A stretch of DNA of 64,000 bases, taken from a virus. The DNA lies in the IMG/VR virus record IMGVR_UViG_3300032213_001850, positions 17,380 through 81,379 of that record; one strand, 5' to 3'. Shown piece after piece: positions 52,491 to 62,861 of the stretch (positions within the stretch are counted from its first letter, which is position 1; every line of letters starts with the position of its first letter). A program made the position numbers and the translations under genes. Below the pieces are notes generated by a model that was not told the DNA's origin, searched no databases, and saw nothing but the letters and a program-made list of their open reading frames with translations.

Positions 52491-52498
52491 GATATTTA
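52491..52498 (+). promoter_or_regulatory. GATATTTA box 5 bases before a start codon
   Basis: GATATTTATA is 5 bases before the ATG at 52504. TTTG at 52462-52465 is 25 bases upstream, longer than the usual spacing. If it is a promoter the mRNA would be leaderless. Confidence 0.45.
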
Positions 52499-52503
52499 TA
52501 TAC

Positions 52504-54753
52504 ATGAATTTAAATCAATTACAATTTAATGAAGAATTTCCTGGAGGAATAGGTACCGGATTAGTTTTACCTGGTGGATATATTAATGGTGCACCCAGTG
52601 AATCGGTTTCAAAAATAATGACTTCAAATGAAGAAGAGAAAATATTTGAAGAATTTGTAAATAAATATTTTGTCATAAAAGAAGGAGGAGCTGCAGGACA
52701 TTTGGCACATCCATTTGAAGATGAAAATCTAAGGTTCTCCGATATGAAATCCATGCTTAATAAGGGATTATTGGGAGGACTGGATTCAGAAGCTCCTGTT
52801 AGTGAAAAACTAGACGGACAGAATATTGCATTTACTGTAAAGGATGGTAATATAAGATTTGGTAGAAACAAAGGCCATGTTAAAAATAGTGGAGAAAATT
52901 CATTGGATGTTCAAGGAATTGCAAAACAATTTGCCGGAAGAGGTGGAATTGAAAAAGCTTTCACCGGTGCAGCTGAAGATTTACATGCGGCCGTTTCTAA
53001 ATTAAAACCAGAACAAGTTAGAAAAATGTTTGGTAATGGTTCTAAATTTATGAGTTTAGAAATTATATTACCTGATACCACAAATGTAATCCCATATGGT
53101 AGAAGTGTATTGGTAATGCATGGAACAATTCAATATGATAAAGAGGGAAATGAGGTAGGTCGTTCTAATGAAGATGCACAATTATTTGCAACAGCAGTTC
53201 AAAAAGTTGGAGCTGATAAACAAAAAACATTTGGTATTGAAGGGCCCAAAACAATTGCATTTTCCGATGAACCAACAAAGGAATATTTGGATAAATACAA
53301 ATTATATGATAAGCAATTATCCAATTTACAAAAACAATATGGTTTAACTGATAAATCTAAATTAGAAGATTACAGAAGAAAATGGTGGGAAAATGAAATT
53401 AATAACCAAGAAAAACAATTAGGTGTTAAATTTTCTCCATCACAAAAGAAAGGTTTAATTAAAAGGTTTGCAGATGGTGATAAAACATTTGGAGTAAAAA
53501 ACTTAGAACAACCAGCACAACAACAGTGGTTTAGAGATTTTGAAACAAACAAATTACAGGCATCTCAAAAACAAATGATTAAACCAATTGAAAGTGTATT
53601 TTTAAACGCAGGTGCACAGACATTAAAAAGAGTAACAAACTTTTTAGCAGCAAACAATCCTGGTGCAGCTGATGCACTAAGAAAGGAAACCTTACAATCA
53701 ATTAAAGGAATTAAAGATAGTAAAGATGTCGATAAAATTGCAAAATTACAAATTGAATTAGAAAGATTAAATAATATCGGTATGGATAATATTGTCCCAT
53801 CCGAAGGAGTTGTATTTCAATATAAAGGAAAACCATACAAATTTACAGGAGCATTTGCACCTATAAATCAAATACAAGGAACTTTTAAATTTGACAAACC
53901 AAAAAAGAAAGAAGAAACTCCTGTATCTGGAAAAGAACAACCAAAAGAAACTAACAAAAAAACAATAGCTATTTTTTCTGGTAGATTCCAACCATTCCAT
54001 GCAGGACATTATAGTATTTACAAATCATTGGTTGATAAGTTTGGTAAAGATAATGTATATGTTGCAACCTCAAATATTGTTGACCCAATTAAGTCTCCAT
54101 TCTCATTTAAGGATAAGAAACAAATTATGACTACAATGTTTGATATACCAAAAAACAAAGTAGTACAGGTTAAAAATCCATATGCACCGGTTGAGATTTT
54201 AGAAAAATTTCCACCAGAAACTTCATATGTTACTGCAGTTTCAGAAAAAGATGCAGAAAGACTTCAAAGAAATGATAAATATTTTAAAAATATAGAAGAT
54301 GTTCCATCACAAAAAAGAAAAGGATATGGTGATGAGGGATATTTTATAATTGCACCTGAAATGCAGTTAAAAGTAAATAGAAAAAATATTAGTGGTACTC
54401 AATTGAGAGCAACTTTTGGAAATGATATGATGTCCGCAGCTGAAAAGAAAAAAATATTTACACAAATATATCCTAAATTTGATAAAGATGTTTTTGCAAA
54501 TATTGTAAATACAACCAAAAAAGCAGAAGCATTAAAAAAATCAAAACAAGTTACCAAAGATACAGCTTTAAAATCAAAATTAAAATCATTAGACCCTAAA
54601 ACTAAAAAGAAAGTACAAAAAACTTTACAAACTAAAATTAAAAATCCTGTTACTGGAAATGTAATATTAGTTAAATCTGCATTAAAATATGATGATAGTC
54701 AAGCAGTAAAAAAACTTGCAGTTGGTTTAATAAAACAAGCTATGAAAAAATAA
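52504..54753 (+). CDS. Nucleotidyltransferase (RNA ligase-like) fused to NMN adenylyltransferase-like domain
   Basis: It has 749 residues. Residues 95-465 resemble the ATP/NAD-dependent ligase superfamily: SEKLDGQN (KxDG, Lys102), GRNKGHV, KFMSLEIIL (motif III/IIIa-like), SEGVVFQY (433-440, motif IV-like) and KFTGAF (motif V-like). Residues 485-680 are a NadM-type cytidylyltransferase-like domain: FSGRFQPFHAGH (HxGH at 499-502) and NISGTQLRATF (the ISxTxxR motif). The C-terminus is Lys-rich. Such a fusion could combine NAD synthesis with ligase-type adenylylation or RNA repair. Confidence 0.72.
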   Translation: MNLNQLQFNEEFPGGIGTGLVLPGGYINGAPSESVSKIMTSNEEEKIFEEFVNKYFVIKEGGAAGHLAHPFEDENLRFSDMKSMLNKGLLGGLDSEAPVSEKLDGQNIAFTVKDGNIRFGRNKGHVKNSGENSLDVQGIAKQFAGRGGIEKAFTGAAEDLHAAVSKLKPEQVRKMFGNGSKFMSLEIILPDTTNVIPYGRSVLVMHGTIQYDKEGNEVGRSNEDAQLFATAVQKVGADKQKTFGIEGPKTIAFSDEPTKEYLDKYKLYDKQLSNLQKQYGLTDKSKLEDYRRKWWENEINNQEKQLGVKFSPSQKKGLIKRFADGDKTFGVKNLEQPAQQQWFRDFETNKLQASQKQMIKPIESVFLNAGAQTLKRVTNFLAANNPGAADALRKETLQSIKGIKDSKDVDKIAKLQIELERLNNIGMDNIVPSEGVVFQYKGKPYKFTGAFAPINQIQGTFKFDKPKKKEETPVSGKEQPKETNKKTIAIFSGRFQPFHAGHYSIYKSLVDKFGKDNVYVATSNIVDPIKSPFSFKDKKQIMTTMFDIPKNKVVQVKNPYAPVEILEKFPPETSYVTAVSEKDAERLQRNDKYFKNIEDVPSQKRKGYGDEGYFIIAPEMQLKVNRKNISGTQLRATFGNDMMSAAEKKKIFTQIYPKFDKDVFANIVNTTKKAEALKKSKQVTKDTALKSKLKSLDPKTKKKVQKTLQTKIKNPVTGNVILVKSALKYDDSQAVKKLAVGLIKQAMKK

Positions 54754-55495: not shown

Positions 55496-56143
55496 ATGAA
55501 AAAATTCTTAAATTTAAAAAACATTGCAATTGCAGTATTAGTAGTAATCGTATTATTAGAGTATTTTAACCCAGGTGGAAAGATGCCAGGTAGAACTGTT
55601 AGAATTGATGGTAAAAAATACGAAGTTATTAAACATGACATAGATACATTTGAAGTTGTTAAAACGAAAGTAGTAACTAAAAAAGGTTCGGACATCTATC
55701 ATGAAACAATTGTAGAAAAAGAAGTAGTAATCCCTGCAATAGTGGATACTCAAGCTTTATTAAAAGATTACTATTCAAAAGTATTATACAAAGATGTATT
55801 AGTATTACCTGATTCATTAGGAACAGTTTCAGTAACGGATACAATTTCACAAAACAAAATTATGGGTAGAACTTTCGATGCTAAAGTAAAAGAAAGAACT
55901 ATTAAAGAAACTCTTATTGTTAAAGAATTGCCTAAAACACAAGTGTATTATGGTTTTACTGGTGGATTTAACAAAGCTGATGTAGTTTCAAATATTGGTG
56001 GTGGGTTGTTGATAAAAACTAAAAAAGATAAAATCTACCAAGTTGGTGTGGGTGTTGCAAATAGAGTAACAGACGGAACTAACGGAACATTATCACCATA
56101 TGTTGGTGCAGGTGTATATTGGAAGATTAAATTCAAAAAATAA
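55496..56143 (+). CDS. Membrane-anchored protein of unknown function
   Basis: It has 215 residues. Residues about 9-24 form a hydrophobic segment (IAIAVLVVIVLLEYF) after a KK-type N-terminus, so it is probably anchored in the inner membrane. The C-terminal half has alternating strands with Gly-aromatic patterns (YYGFTGGFNKA, YVGAGVYWKIKFKK), as in outer-membrane barrel-like or periplasmic beta proteins. A spanin-like or superinfection-related role is possible but unproven. Confidence 0.55.
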   Translation: MKKFLNLKNIAIAVLVVIVLLEYFNPGGKMPGRTVRIDGKKYEVIKHDIDTFEVVKTKVVTKKGSDIYHETIVEKEVVIPAIVDTQALLKDYYSKVLYKDVLVLPDSLGTVSVTDTISQNKIMGRTFDAKVKERTIKETLIVKELPKTQVYYGFTGGFNKADVVSNIGGGLLIKTKKDKIYQVGVGVANRVTDGTNGTLSPYVGAGVYWKIKFKK

Positions 56144-57753
56144 TGGGAGTTCAGGGGCAACCTAAGAAAACATTAAAAGAGATAATTGCTGAAGAATATC
56201 GCAAGTGTGCGTTAGACCCAATTTACTTTATGAAAAAGTATTGTGTCATTCAGCATCCGGTGAGAGGAAAAATACCCTTTCACCTTTATCCTTTCCAGGA
56301 AGATTGTTTAACAGACTTTAAAGATAATCGTTTTAACATTATTCTTAAATCTCGTCAGTTGGGTCTATCGACTTTATCTGCAGGATTTATTTTATGGAAG
56401 ATGTTATTCAACCAAGATTTCAATGCGTTGGTAATTGCAACGAAAGTCACTGTAGCAAAGAATCTGGTAGAGAAGGTAAGAGTTATGCACGATTTACTTC
56501 CTGTTTGGTTGAGAGATGGTGGTAGTTCATCGGTAGAAGATAACAAACTATCACTTAAATTAAAAAATGGTTCACAAGTAAAAGCAATCGCAAGTTCTCC
56601 AGACGCAGGCCGTTCGGAAGCCTTATCATTGTTAGTTGTGGATGAAGCTGCATTCATTAGAGATATTGATGAGATTTGGTTATCTGCACAATCTACATTA
56701 TCAACGGGTGGTTCTGCAATTGTATTATCTACTCCAAATGGCGTTGGTAACTGGTTCCATAAAATGTGGGTAGAAGGAGAAAGTGGTGCAAACGGATTTA
56801 ATTGTATTAACCTACATTGGACAAAACATCCAGAAAGAAATCAAGCATGGAGAGATGAACAAACTCGTATTTTGGGAATTAAAGGAGCAGCACAAGAATG
56901 TGATTGTGACTTTGTTGGTTCTGGTGATACGGTATTTGAACCGGCATTATTGACATGGTATAAAGATACATATGTGATGGACCCGGTTGAAAAAAGAGGA
57001 TTTGATAGTAATTTGTGGGTTTGGGAACATCCTAATTATAATAGAGCATATATGATATCCGCCGATGTCGCTAGAGGTGACGGAGCCGATTATTCTACTG
57101 CACAAGTTATAGACATAGAAGATTCATCACAGGTTGCAGAATATAGAGGTAAAATAGACACAAAAGATTTCGGAAACTTTTTAACATCATTGGCAACCGA
57201 ATATAATAACGCACTATTAGTTGTGGAGAACTCAAATGTGGGTTGGGCTTGTATTCAACAAATTATCAATAGAGGATATCAAAACTTATTTTATATGAGT
57301 AATGATTTAAAGTATATTGATACCGAAAGACAAATGTCAAACAAATATTATAGAGACGAAAGACAAATGGTTGCGGGATTTTCAACAACAACCAAAACTC
57401 GTCCTCTTATCATATCAGCATTGGACACATATATGAATGACAAAGATATTCTAATTCGTTCAAGTAGATTGATAGATGAAATGTTTACATTCATTTGGCA
57501 GAGTGGTAGGGCAGAAGCAATGAAAGGTTATAATGATGACCTTATTATGGCATTAGGTATTGGACTTTGGGTTCGTAATACTGCACTTCGTTTAAAACAA
57601 GAGGGAATTGATTTGACAAAAAATATGTTAAATGCAACATCAATTAATCCAAATCAGGGAGTTTATTCTTCAAATTGGCAAAATCATAAAAATCCATATG
57701 AAATGGAGCTGGGAAAAGGTGAAGTAGAAAACCTAACTTGGTTGCTAAAGTAA
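56143..57753 (+). CDS. Terminase large subunit (gp17-like)
   Basis: The 536-residue product pumps DNA into the prohead and cuts the concatemer. The ATPase has a deviant Walker A, LKSRQLGLST (Lys69 at its start rather than a GKT), and a Walker B LLVVDEAAFI with the catalytic Glu. Motif C follows as IVLSTPNGVGNWF. The RNase H-like nuclease domain has YMISADVARGDGADYS. The position before the portal matches T4-like order. Confidence 0.92.
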   Translation: MGVQGQPKKTLKEIIAEEYRKCALDPIYFMKKYCVIQHPVRGKIPFHLYPFQEDCLTDFKDNRFNIILKSRQLGLSTLSAGFILWKMLFNQDFNALVIATKVTVAKNLVEKVRVMHDLLPVWLRDGGSSSVEDNKLSLKLKNGSQVKAIASSPDAGRSEALSLLVVDEAAFIRDIDEIWLSAQSTLSTGGSAIVLSTPNGVGNWFHKMWVEGESGANGFNCINLHWTKHPERNQAWRDEQTRILGIKGAAQECDCDFVGSGDTVFEPALLTWYKDTYVMDPVEKRGFDSNLWVWEHPNYNRAYMISADVARGDGADYSTAQVIDIEDSSQVAEYRGKIDTKDFGNFLTSLATEYNNALLVVENSNVGWACIQQIINRGYQNLFYMSNDLKYIDTERQMSNKYYRDERQMVAGFSTTTKTRPLIISALDTYMNDKDILIRSSRLIDEMFTFIWQSGRAEAMKGYNDDLIMALGIGLWVRNTALRLKQEGIDLTKNMLNATSINPNQGVYSSNWQNHKNPYEMELGKGEVENLTWLLK

Positions 57754-57787: not shown

Positions 57788-58351
57788 ATGAAACTAATTA
57801 ATTTAATTCCAAGTAATTTTACAGACATCAAAATTCTTACAAAAGAAGAATTTATGCAAGAAATGGAAAACCCGTGTTGGAAAGGATATGAAATGGTAGG
57901 TACTAAGAAAAAAAATGGTAGAGAAGTGCCTAATTGTGTTCCTAAAAATGAAAATATAGAAGAAGATATCAATAGTGATGACGATATTAATTATGGTAAA
58001 GTAGAACCTGAAGAATATGATGTAGATAATTATGATGATTTCAAAGACTTTATATCATACATAAAAGAATACAATAAAGAATTATCAGAAGCAACTTGCC
58101 CATGCATGACCGAAGGTGAATATCAAGGTAGAGATGTTCCGTTGGGCAAACCAATGAGAGGTGATGTAAAGAAATTTAAAGTATATGTAAAAAATCCTGC
58201 AGGCAATGTTGTTAAGGTAAACTTTGGTGACCCGAATATGAGAATTAAAAAATCAAATCCTGCAAGAAGAAAATCCTTTAGAGCAAGACATAATTGTGCA
58301 AACCCAGGACCAAGAACAAAAGCAAGATATTGGAGTTGTAGAAAGTGGTAA
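57788..58351 (+). CDS. Conserved head-region protein with basic Cys-containing tail
   Basis: It has 187 residues: an acidic centre (EEDINSDDDINYG...) followed by a very basic C-terminus with Asp-Pro-Asn-Met-Arg and NPARRKSFRARHNC, ending in a Trp-Ser-Cys motif. The C-terminal block is recurrent in marine T4-like phages next to the portal gene. Its role is unknown; it may be a DNA- or capsid-binding assembly protein. Confidence 0.6.
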   Translation: MKLINLIPSNFTDIKILTKEEFMQEMENPCWKGYEMVGTKKKNGREVPNCVPKNENIEEDINSDDDINYGKVEPEEYDVDNYDDFKDFISYIKEYNKELSEATCPCMTEGEYQGRDVPLGKPMRGDVKKFKVYVKNPAGNVVKVNFGDPNMRIKKSNPARRKSFRARHNCANPGPRTKARYWSCRKW

Positions 58352-58405: not shown

Positions 58406-60151
58406 ATGGCAGATAAATCAATATTTAGTAGGTTACAAAAATTATTTTCAACAAATACTATTGTCAGAAAAACGGCAAAAGGAATCAAAGTCGTAGATAC
58501 CGATGAGTATCAAAATATGACTACGAACCTAGTTGACCGTTTTATGAAACTAAAAGTTACAAATTATGGAACTGGACAAGTAGAATCTTCATTAGCATAT
58601 CAACAAGTTAGAATTGACCTATTTAGAGATTACGACTCAATGGATACAGACCCAATTTTATCATCGGCATTAAATGTGTATGCAGACGAATGTACTGCTA
58701 GAAATGAAATGGGTAGTGTATTAAAAATACATCACGAAGACGACCAAATCAAACAAGTATTAGAAAATTTATTTTACGATACACTTAATGTTGAATTTAA
58801 CTTATGGCCATGGGTTAGAAATTTAGTAAAATATGGTGATTTTTACTTACAATTAGAAATGGCAGATGAATTAGGTATTGTGAATACAAACCCATTATCT
58901 ACTTACGAAATGAGTAGAGTTGAAGGATTTGACCCACAAAACCCACAAAGAGTTAAATTTGTATATGCACCATATCAAAATCCAAATAGTGGATATTCTC
59001 AAAATAATAAAAAAGAATACGAAAACTATGAAATTGCACACTTTAGATTAAATGGTGATGCAAACTTCTTACCATATGGAAAATCTATGTTAGAAGGTGG
59101 TAGAAGAGTTTGGAAACAATTAATGTTGATGGAAGATGCAATGTTAATTCATAGAGTAATGAGAGCTCCTGAAAAGAGAATCTTTAAAGTGGATGTTGGT
59201 AATATCCCACCAAACGAAGTGGATAACTACATGCAGAAGATTATCAACTCATCTAAAAAAGTTCCCTTCGTTGATGAAAGAACTGGTGAGTATAACTTAA
59301 AATACAATATGCAAAACTTAATTGAAGATTATTATATGCCAGTTCGTGGTAGTGATAATGGAACTTCAATTGATACTTTAAAAGGTTTGGAATATAATAT
59401 GATTGATGATATCAACTATTTAAAAAATAAGTTGATGGCTGCTTTACAAATTCCAAAAGCATATTTAGGATATGAAGAAGATACAAATGGTAAAGCAACT
59501 CTTGCAGCAATGGATGTTAGATTTGCAAAAACAATTGAAAGAATACAAAGAGTTATCATTTCGGAATTAACTAAAATTGCAATCGTTCACTTATATGCAC
59601 AAGGAATTGAAGATGATAGATTAACTAGTTTCACATTAGAATTAACTATTCCATCTAAAATATATGAACAAGAAAAGGTTGAATTATATACATCAAAAAT
59701 AGCATTGATTCAACAAATGCAACAAACCAAAATGGTTTCAAAAGAATGGATGTATAAGGCTATATTAAATATGGCTAAAGATGAACAAGATGAAATGACA
59801 ATGCAAGTATTAGATGATACAAAACAATCATTCCGTTTAACTTCTATTGAAACACAGGGTATGGACCCGGCTAAACCAACCGGAACCGAAGGTACGACAA
59901 ATGTTGAAGAAGAAATAGATAATATCAATTCCGAATTGTCAAATGAAGATGAAGGTGGAAGACCAAAAGACCTTACAAGATATGGTAAAGATGACCACCC
60001 ACAAGGTAGAGACCCGTTGGGTGTTAAAACACTTAAAGCAAAAGAAGGTTCTGTAAAATATAAACCTAGAGAATCATATACTGAAATATTTAAAGATATG
60101 AAAGGTAATAAAAAAAAGATTTTAACAGAGAATTTAACAAAAAAGCAATAA
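58406..60151 (+). CDS. Portal protein (gp20-like)
   Basis: It has 581 residues; T4 gp20 has 524. N-terminal RIDLFRDYDSMDTDPILSSALNVYADECT, central YEIAHFRLNGDAN and LEGGRRVWKQLMLMEDAMLIHRV, and then PEKRIFKVDVGNIP and KAYLGYEEDTNGKATL are typical of portals of T4-like phages. The dodecamer forms the DNA channel and docks the terminase. The C-terminal 100 residues are acidic and disordered-looking. Its promoter is described separately. Confidence 0.88.
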   Translation: MADKSIFSRLQKLFSTNTIVRKTAKGIKVVDTDEYQNMTTNLVDRFMKLKVTNYGTGQVESSLAYQQVRIDLFRDYDSMDTDPILSSALNVYADECTARNEMGSVLKIHHEDDQIKQVLENLFYDTLNVEFNLWPWVRNLVKYGDFYLQLEMADELGIVNTNPLSTYEMSRVEGFDPQNPQRVKFVYAPYQNPNSGYSQNNKKEYENYEIAHFRLNGDANFLPYGKSMLEGGRRVWKQLMLMEDAMLIHRVMRAPEKRIFKVDVGNIPPNEVDNYMQKIINSSKKVPFVDERTGEYNLKYNMQNLIEDYYMPVRGSDNGTSIDTLKGLEYNMIDDINYLKNKLMAALQIPKAYLGYEEDTNGKATLAAMDVRFAKTIERIQRVIISELTKIAIVHLYAQGIEDDRLTSFTLELTIPSKIYEQEKVELYTSKIALIQQMQQTKMVSKEWMYKAILNMAKDEQDEMTMQVLDDTKQSFRLTSIETQGMDPAKPTGTEGTTNVEEEIDNINSELSNEDEGGRPKDLTRYGKDDHPQGRDPLGVKTLKAKEGSVKYKPRESYTEIFKDMKGNKKKILTENLTKKQ

Positions 60152-61978: not shown

Positions 61979-62271
61979 TGAAATTAGAACAATTAAAACA
62001 AATTGTAAGAGAAGTAATAGATGAATCTCATGATGATTATGAGAAATTTTTCAAACACATGCTTACTAAAACTGGCCATTCATTGAAAAACATGTCACCA
62101 ACGGCTAAAAGTAAATTTTTTATTGCAATCGATAAAGCATATAAAGCTAAGAACGAAGGTAAATTGAGAGGATATAACGAAGACTTACCTGGAAATCAAG
62201 ATGTATTGGATGTAGATAAAGATGGTGAAATCGAAGCTTCTGATTTGGCAAAATTGAGAAACAAGAAATAA
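61978..62271 (+). CDS. Small protein with EF-hand/dockerin-like calcium motif
   Basis: The 97-residue product starts KLEQLKQIVREVIDES and ends with DVDKDGEIEASD (Asp78, 80, 82, Glu84, Asp89), a match to the EF-hand DxDxDGxIxxxD loop. The N-terminal helix is like that in neighbouring proteins. It overlaps by a base with both neighbours. A calcium-dependent role in head maturation is possible but unproven. Confidence 0.6.
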   Translation: MKLEQLKQIVREVIDESHDDYEKFFKHMLTKTGHSLKNMSPTAKSKFFIAIDKAYKAKNEGKLRGYNEDLPGNQDVLDVDKDGEIEASDLAKLRNKK

Positions 62272-62861
62272 TGAGTAAAGGATTATTGATAGAAACACAT
62301 TTGTTTGAAGCAAAACTTCAAAAAGAAGAAAATGGAACTTATTTGGTTAAGGGAATTCTTCAACGTGCAGGTGCTCCAAATCAAAATCACAGAAGATATC
62401 CTAAAGAGATATTAGAAAGGGAGTGTAAAAAATACAATCAACTTATTCAAGAAAGAAGAGCATTGGGTGAATTAGACCATCCTGAGTCTCCAGTTATCAA
62501 CCTAAAAAATGTATCACATAATATTAGAGAAATTTGGTGGGAAGGTGATGATGTTTGTGGTGTGGTAGAAATTCTTTCAACTCCATCTGGTAATATCTTA
62601 AAAGAATTATTGAAGAATAATATTCGTTTGGGTATTTCATCAAGAGGATTGGGTTCGGTAAAAAATATGAATGATGGGACTGTAATGGTTCAGGAAGACT
62701 TTGAATTAGTAGGATGGGACTTTGTATCAAATCCATCAACACATGGTGCATTTATGGCTCCTATGAACGAATCTAAACAATGGGCACAACAAGCTGAAGA
62801 ATGTGGTAAATGGTGTAAGTCACAAGATTTAATGAGAGAAATTATAATAGAATTAAACTAA
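62271..62861 (+). CDS. Prohead core protease (gp21, S80 family)
   Basis: It has 196 residues. The catalytic His lies in GELDHPESP (His70) and the Ser in RLGISSRGLGS (Ser123/124), as in the S80 prohead proteases; SNPSTHGAFMAP is a typical C-terminal segment. It cleaves scaffold and head proteins during maturation. It is encoded between small head proteins and the 62866 gene. The capsid protein expected after it is not in the window. Confidence 0.88.
   Translation: MSKGLLIETHLFEAKLQKEENGTYLVKGILQRAGAPNQNHRRYPKEILERECKKYNQLIQERRALGELDHPESPVINLKNVSHNIREIWWEGDDVCGVVEILSTPSGNILKELLKNNIRLGISSRGLGSVKNMNDGTVMVQEDFELVGWDFVSNPSTHGAFMAPMNESKQWAQQAEECGKWCKSQDLMREIIIELN

Follow-up and report, generated by a model that had tools for sequence, protein, structure and literature searches.

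A single phage gene whose product joins a ligase-like domain to an NMN adenylyltransferase (NadM)-like domain raises the question of what the two halves do together, and at which stage of infection. The gene occupies 52504–54753 on the plus strand of the window, the 64,000-nucleotide stretch analysed here, as one ATG-to-stop ORF of 749 residues; the surrounding record, from an uncultivated virus, spans 81,379 bases and contains the fusion ORF once, intact. The protein is organized into a disordered, hypervariable N-terminus (residues 1–60; 52504–52683) that is possibly a capsid-targeting propeptide with a putative cleavage site, a ligase-like covalent nucleotidyltransferase domain (residues 60–467; 52681–53904), a NadM-like HIGH-superfamily adenylyltransferase domain (residues 487–676; 53962–54531) and a Lys-rich tail. 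In the AlphaFold2 model of the whole protein (pLDDT 80), residues 1–68 (pLDDT below 50) and the inter-domain linker are disordered. A sequence-only reading had placed a KxDG domain and a NadM-like domain in one protein; both halves were modelled with high confidence, and Lys102 (within SEKLDGQN), HxGH and ISGTQLR were all found as it described. The window copy consists of these two enzyme domains only, and extra mosaic modules occur in homologues. Scanning the window for Rfam families and for tRNAs gave no match.

The ligase-like domain was delimited by alignments, the AlphaFold2 model and Foldseek. Covalent nucleotidyltransferases carry motifs I, III, IIIa, IV and V in this order, and the same order was observed in an alignment of 101 homologous domains reaching down to ~33% identity with the window domain. 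Within motif I, EKLDG (52804–52818), E101, K102, D104 and G105 are identical in 101/101 domains, with Lys102 as the predicted nucleotidyl-lysine. Equally invariant are R121–N122 of RNKG (52864–52869), an expected phosphate contact; Glu186 of motif III (53059–53061); Y198; Glu434–Gly435 of motif IV (53803–53808); K446-x-T448-G449 of motif V (53839–53850); and H66 and H69, while His206 in the motif IIIa region (53119–53121) is retained in 100/101. The defining elements of the superfamily, namely a KxDG motif I, a downstream Arg and the Glu residues of motifs III and IV, are present throughout (101/101). Chance is ruled out as the source of this predicted ligase signature by its identity across all homologues at such divergence, and residues so strictly conserved suggest that the active site is functional. 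The expectation of a conserved lysine and a motif V holds for Lys102 and K446 but not for the second lysine of motif V, where the usual K-x-K is K-x-T across the 101 homologues.

As a single sequence, the ligase half gave no database match and no family above cut-off. Among 30 members of the ligase alignment, Pfam RNA_ligase (PF09414) was the commonest weak match (15/30; best E 0.003), and membership of that family was rejected as no score exceeded its cut-off; a PDB profile search with the alignment returned chance matches only. Modelled alone, the domain reached a pLDDT of 88.6 and a pTM of 0.84, and its first eight Foldseek neighbours in the PDB were fungal tRNA ligase, T4 Rnl1, archaeal RNA ligase and T4 Rnl2. 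These matches are weak (E 8e-3 to 4e-2; TM-scores 0.2–0.35), and the model therefore points to kinship at the level of the superfamily rather than to a place in a known ligase family. The scores are probably lowered by a helical insert of ~180 residues that separates motif IIIa from motif IV.

The NadM-like half was recognized by Pfam CTP_transf_like (E 1.8e-7, above cut-off) and PHROG 395 cytidyltransferase (7e-12), and a 25-sequence profile of it retrieved PDB entries of archaeal NMN adenylyltransferases (1f9a, 6e-9; 1ej2, 3.6e-8). In a Foldseek search of the whole-protein model against the PDB, NMN/NaMN adenylyltransferases ranked first, consistent with the NadM fold anticipated from sequence. 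The alignment of NadM-like domains places GRFQPFHAGH, with its HxGH motif, at residues 493–502 (53980–54009) and ISGTQLR at residues 629–635 (54388–54408), the S, G and R of the latter being invariant in the 25 sequences. GRFQPFHxGH, SGTxxR and the fold together identify a NadM-like domain, with the first His absent from some marine members. Many marine domains (e.g., L078, L049 and L037) read GRFQPFGPHH or GRFQPAASHH, with the first HxGH His lost and the second kept. The NCBIfam equivalog cut-offs were not reached, the highest score being 30 bits where 449 are required. The NMN-specificity region does not align, so that NMN is a presumed substrate. Such a divergent substrate region, a chain with two nucleotidyltransferase active sites and kinship to a superfamily that includes mRNA capping enzymes would suit a protein that makes or removes NAD-type RNA caps; however, no result here points to RNA caps, and a transfer of NMN to RNA after transcription has no precedent known to us; this reading is highly improbable.

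The ligase-like domain was detected in at least 536 viral contigs, in 3 of 50,697 phage records and in 1 of 84,980 cellular species genomes. The single cellular case is a metagenome-assembled contig with adjoining phage terminase and portal genes, on which ground a cellular origin was rejected. Among 46 complete ORFs, NadM precedes the ligase in 26, the ligase precedes NadM in 19, and one carries the ligase alone; with 45 of the 46 fused, an accident of one phage was likewise rejected. The ligase-then-NadM order, including the window, forms one clade of the tree (support 99) and corresponds to one reversal; as this order is confined to a single clade, the fusion outlived the rearrangement. Even the sole unfused copy, in the jumbo phage LR756500, is followed directly by a gene that is again NadM-like at its C-terminus. 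The product of this following gene (L023, 13274–15244) starts with ENLDG where the motif I lysine is expected, possibly representing a degenerate ligase-like domain.

N-terminal extensions vary from tens to ~1000 residues, reach up to the ligase domain and contain shuffled modules, including a zeta-toxin/AAA_33-type P-loop kinase, an M78-type metallopeptidase, and ParB-like, zinc-ribbon and KOW-like domains. The kinase module (GGPGSGK) is present in 13 of the 26 complete NadM-first ORFs (L050, L078, L099 and others), and in L196 (4186–6924) it is fused to a cyanophage-type NadM protein. This recurrence suggests a kinase–NadM–ligase trio, which would suit RNA end repair by kinase and ligase, but also the pairing of a NadR-like kinase with an NMN adenylyltransferase (NMNAT). 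The Lys-rich tail carries a SALKYD module that is repeated in the extensions.

We then asked whether the NadM-like half belongs to a conventional salvage pathway. A host NAD+-dependent DNA ligase releases NMN, which an injected NMNAT could use. In phages, every NadM is reported to be accompanied by NadV (Iyer et al. 2022, PMC9503650). NadV was searched for in ten complete or near-complete genomes carrying the window pair or its cyanophage counterpart, a set to which the window record, as a fragment, does not belong. It was absent from Mel-JY01, LR756508, the five cyano- and pelagiphages S-PM2, Syn9, P-SSM2, S-RIM2 and HTVC008M, and two contigs (177 and 196 kb long); only LR756500 has it. With nine of ten genomes lacking NadV, classical NadV–NadM salvage is unlikely; the proposal of phage NAD salvage thus stands as regards a NadM-like domain with conserved motifs and is weakened in its usual two-gene sense. 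An intracellular NAD+ salvage enzyme of NadV–NadM type, made during infection against NAD-depleting defences and with the ligase half as an accessory, would accord with those motifs, with the NadV of the jumbo phage and with NMN supplied by the host DNA ligase, but it is unlikely given the missing NadV, a gene position among head rather than metabolic genes and the presence of the cyanophage counterpart in virions (see below). The same absence of NadV bears on a one-cycle scheme, in which the NMN freed by an NAD+-dependent ligase is turned back into NAD+ by the NadM half. Such a cycle would explain why a ligase and an NMN adenylyltransferase have remained one protein even though the domain order changed and NadV is missing; the fold matches, however, are ATP-dependent RNA ligases, and the Ia-type NMN-binding domain of NAD+-dependent ligases was not recognized, which makes the scheme very doubtful.

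The gene neighbourhood places the fusion among head genes. In most loci that are long enough, terminase, portal and other head genes follow 0.5–2 kb downstream of the gene, and in Mel-JY01 it lies ~2.6 kb upstream of the terminase. On the plus strand of the window follow the terminase large subunit (56143–57753; Pfam, PHROG and synteny), a T4-type portal protein (58406–60151; Pfam, 2.6e-69) and a probable prohead protease (62271–62861; 212 bits to a Mel-JY01 gene annotated as prohead protease). This position in a head cassette is that of packaged proteins of the T4 Alt/internal protein type. A small protein encoded at 57788–58351, with the C-terminus VKNPAGNVVKVNFGDPNMRIK...RARHNCANPGPRTKARYWSCRKW, has matches in ten PHROG families whose function is unknown, and it recurs beside the terminase in homologous loci. 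Between the tail and head genes, ~20 genes (31552–52366) include, by eye, epimerase-, glycosyltransferase- and methyltransferase-like ORFs, and the block looks like a surface-sugar island.

Upstream of the fusion gene, ATATTTATA (52492–52500, plus strand) ends 3 nt before the start codon; it is common to other late genes, also occurs 5′ of four homologues (L003, L010, L016 and L026) and is a possible late promoter. The motif ATATTTAT(A/T) is located 3–23 nt before the start codons of nine late or structural genes on the plus strand of the window (6370, 12455, 17468, 19442, 26360, 52492, 57761, 60166 and 61368), and Shine-Dalgarno sequences are scarce. Judged from these sites, ATATTTAT(A/T) may serve as the late promoter of the window phage. 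The T4 late promoter TATAAATA, the reverse complement of ATATTTAT, showed no enrichment in the window.

The boundary between the N-terminal extension and the ligase domain provides a candidate processing site. The T4 prohead protease gp21 has the consensus (L/I)xE, and the window junction VIKE60–G61 fits a T4-like site of this kind. At the same junction, (L/I)xE directly followed by GG was found in 34 of 41 non-redundant homologues, compared with a chance occurrence of [LI]xE at 1.3% of extension positions. The other seven junctions all end in Met or Cys, so cleavage at this point would not be universal. The stand-alone copy in LR756500 begins with MKFLKSYEEFLNENLILE immediately before GG, and T4 internal proteins begin with MKTYQEFIAE; the latter bear a ten-residue capsid-targeting sequence that is removed by gp21 (PMC9026906). 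The N-terminus of the window protein has no clear T4-type targeting sequence. A capsid-targeting regular expression matched 18 of 22 members of the fusion family against 33 of 385 same-locus ORFs, a post hoc comparison among homologous sequences whose background includes family members, and it showed no enrichment at cyanophage-type NadM-like N-termini (9/43 versus 50/277 in the background); the cyanophage comparison was left out of the statistical evidence, and the post hoc one is not taken as proof.

A parallel system in cyanophages was reached via a fold match and then gene neighbourhoods. Over 712 columns, the whole-protein model matches a cyanophage S-PM2 protein of 591 residues (E 1.4e-10). 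In the S-PM2 genome record, this region consists of two ORFs, one with the front of DUF6267 and the other with its back and a fused cytidyltransferase, and the 591-residue entry would be the joined form of both. Invariant in DUF6267 are HLEHxED, KWDG, QGD, NTxxY, HTxY, EG and KxVDR, to which the window family offers seven co-linear parallels: H66..H69PFxD73, EKxDG, LE186, NVIxY198, H206GTxxY, EG and KxTG. These shared motifs only suggest that DUF6267 is a distant relative of the window ligase family. An hhalign comparison of the ligase family with DUF6267 (3 and 83 sequences) was not significant, though motif I was paired; Pfam gave no DUF6267 (PF19782) match for the window domain; and a ligase-family profile found no match in cyanophages, T4, CBA120 or RM378. 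DUF6267 never occurred together with the window family in the genomes searched; no mention of it was found in the literature searched. In S-SM1, the DUF6267 gene overlaps the T4-GC190 cytidyltransferase gene, which is a cyanophage core gene; its product was found when purified virions of S-SM1 were analysed (Sullivan et al. 2010, PMC3037559). Virions of S-CREM2 also contain a cytidylyltransferase (PMC10665884).

Counterparts in virions, a fixed place beside terminase and portal, and a Lys-rich tail whose SALKYD module recurs in the extensions could also be expected of a head-assembly or scaffold-associated protein that is not injected and whose enzymatic folds are structural or capsid-modifying. 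The full conservation of catalytic residues in both halves and the high variability of the extensions, with their enzyme modules, speak against such a role, which is decidedly unlikely. We give a similarly low probability to a self-recycling enzyme delivered by the virion, either a nucleic-acid ligase or an RNA-cap enzyme, in which the ligase half would consume NAD+, or act on NAD-type RNA ends, and the NadM half would regenerate NAD+ from NMN. We know of no organism in which a ligase and NadM are coupled for NAD+ recycling; if true, T4-like phages abundant in aquatic habitats would carry such an enzyme in their heads.

What is directly established for this family is its anatomy of two domains, their fusion in nearly all members, the conservation of active-site residues, the synteny with head genes and the specificity to phages. 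The explanation to which we give about an even chance is a late-expressed, head-packaged and injected bifunctional enzyme, combining RNA end-joining with NAD+ restoration on presumed substrates; for the window phage itself, we infer packaging, cleavage and injection. The variable disordered N-terminus would target the protein to the prohead, where the prohead protease would cut between (L/I)xE and GG; the processed enzyme would be ejected with the DNA, in the way that T4 Alt and the internal proteins are. Inside the newly infected cell, the ligase half would form lysyl-AMP and join or adenylylate nucleic-acid ends, most likely those of RNA broken by host defences; the NadM half would use ATP to adenylylate NMN, or a close analogue of it, yielding NAD+ or a related dinucleotide. 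Together, the two halves would reverse early damage to RNA and NAD+ ahead of phage gene expression. As cyanophage counterparts of the NadM half are detected in virions, such an injected early-infection role, possibly in anti-defence, appears a better reading than those offered from sequence alone.

The fusion is real, conserved and widespread, with many T4-like phages of aquatic habitats having it, and was not found described as a unit in the literature searched. Two large and unexplained protein groups, the window family with at least 536 viral contigs and DUF6267 with at least 572, are now linked as probable ligase-superfamily enzymes with NadM-like partners. For the cyanophage partner, a core gene whose virion product was reported in 2010, we found no established function. 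If injected, these proteins would constitute a ready-made repair kit for RNA and NAD+, active before phage transcription. Cultured phages carrying the family or its counterpart are the Microcystis phage Mel-JY01 and the cyanophages S-PM2, Syn9 and S-SM1.

Compared with known systems, the window ligase family shares with ATP-dependent RNA ligases (T4 Rnl1, Rnl2, and archaeal and fungal tRNA ligases) motif I, the Arg, motifs III and IV and the first lysine of motif V, in that order; these ligases are also its top Foldseek neighbours, and its Pfam RNA_ligase matches are weak. It differs from them in low TM-scores, the long IIIa–IV helical insert, the K-x-T of motif V, an N-terminal GHxxHPFxD motif of its own and the NadM-like partner. 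NadM and archaeal NMN adenylyltransferases, including the phage bifunctional NadM-Nudix, share GRFQPFHxGH, SGTxxR, the fold and the profile match, whereas the window protein has a ligase-like partner in place of the Nudix domain, its family mostly lacks NadV, and its substrate region has diverged. With polyvalent proteins (Iyer et al. 2017, PMC5512222), the family shares a large mosaic multi-domain build, a head-gene context, and shuffled metallopeptidase and ParB-like domains; several homologues have the features of that class, although the window copy carries two enzyme domains only, and a term search of that paper returned no description of a ligase–NadM core. A parallel in architecture is the pairing of DUF6267 (PF19782; PHROG 455) with T4-GC190 in cyanophages and pelagiphages, in which a KxDG-type protein adjoins or is fused to a NadM-like domain (S-PM2, S-SM1, Syn9 and S-RIM2), likewise near head-protein genes; there, however, the genes are usually separate and lie between replication and head genes, not beside the terminase. 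T4 Alt and the internal proteins resemble the family as products of late genes near head genes, and the window family may also be like them in a putative N-terminal propeptide that ends in a gp21-like (L/I)xE site. They are known to be injected, whereas virion presence on our side is seen for the cyanophage counterparts; unlike Alt, the window protein has no ADP-ribosyltransferase, and its packaging and cleavage are predicted. The fusion is therefore best filed as a new variant among head-packaged phage effector proteins, with a two-enzyme core that, as far as we found, had not been reported together before.
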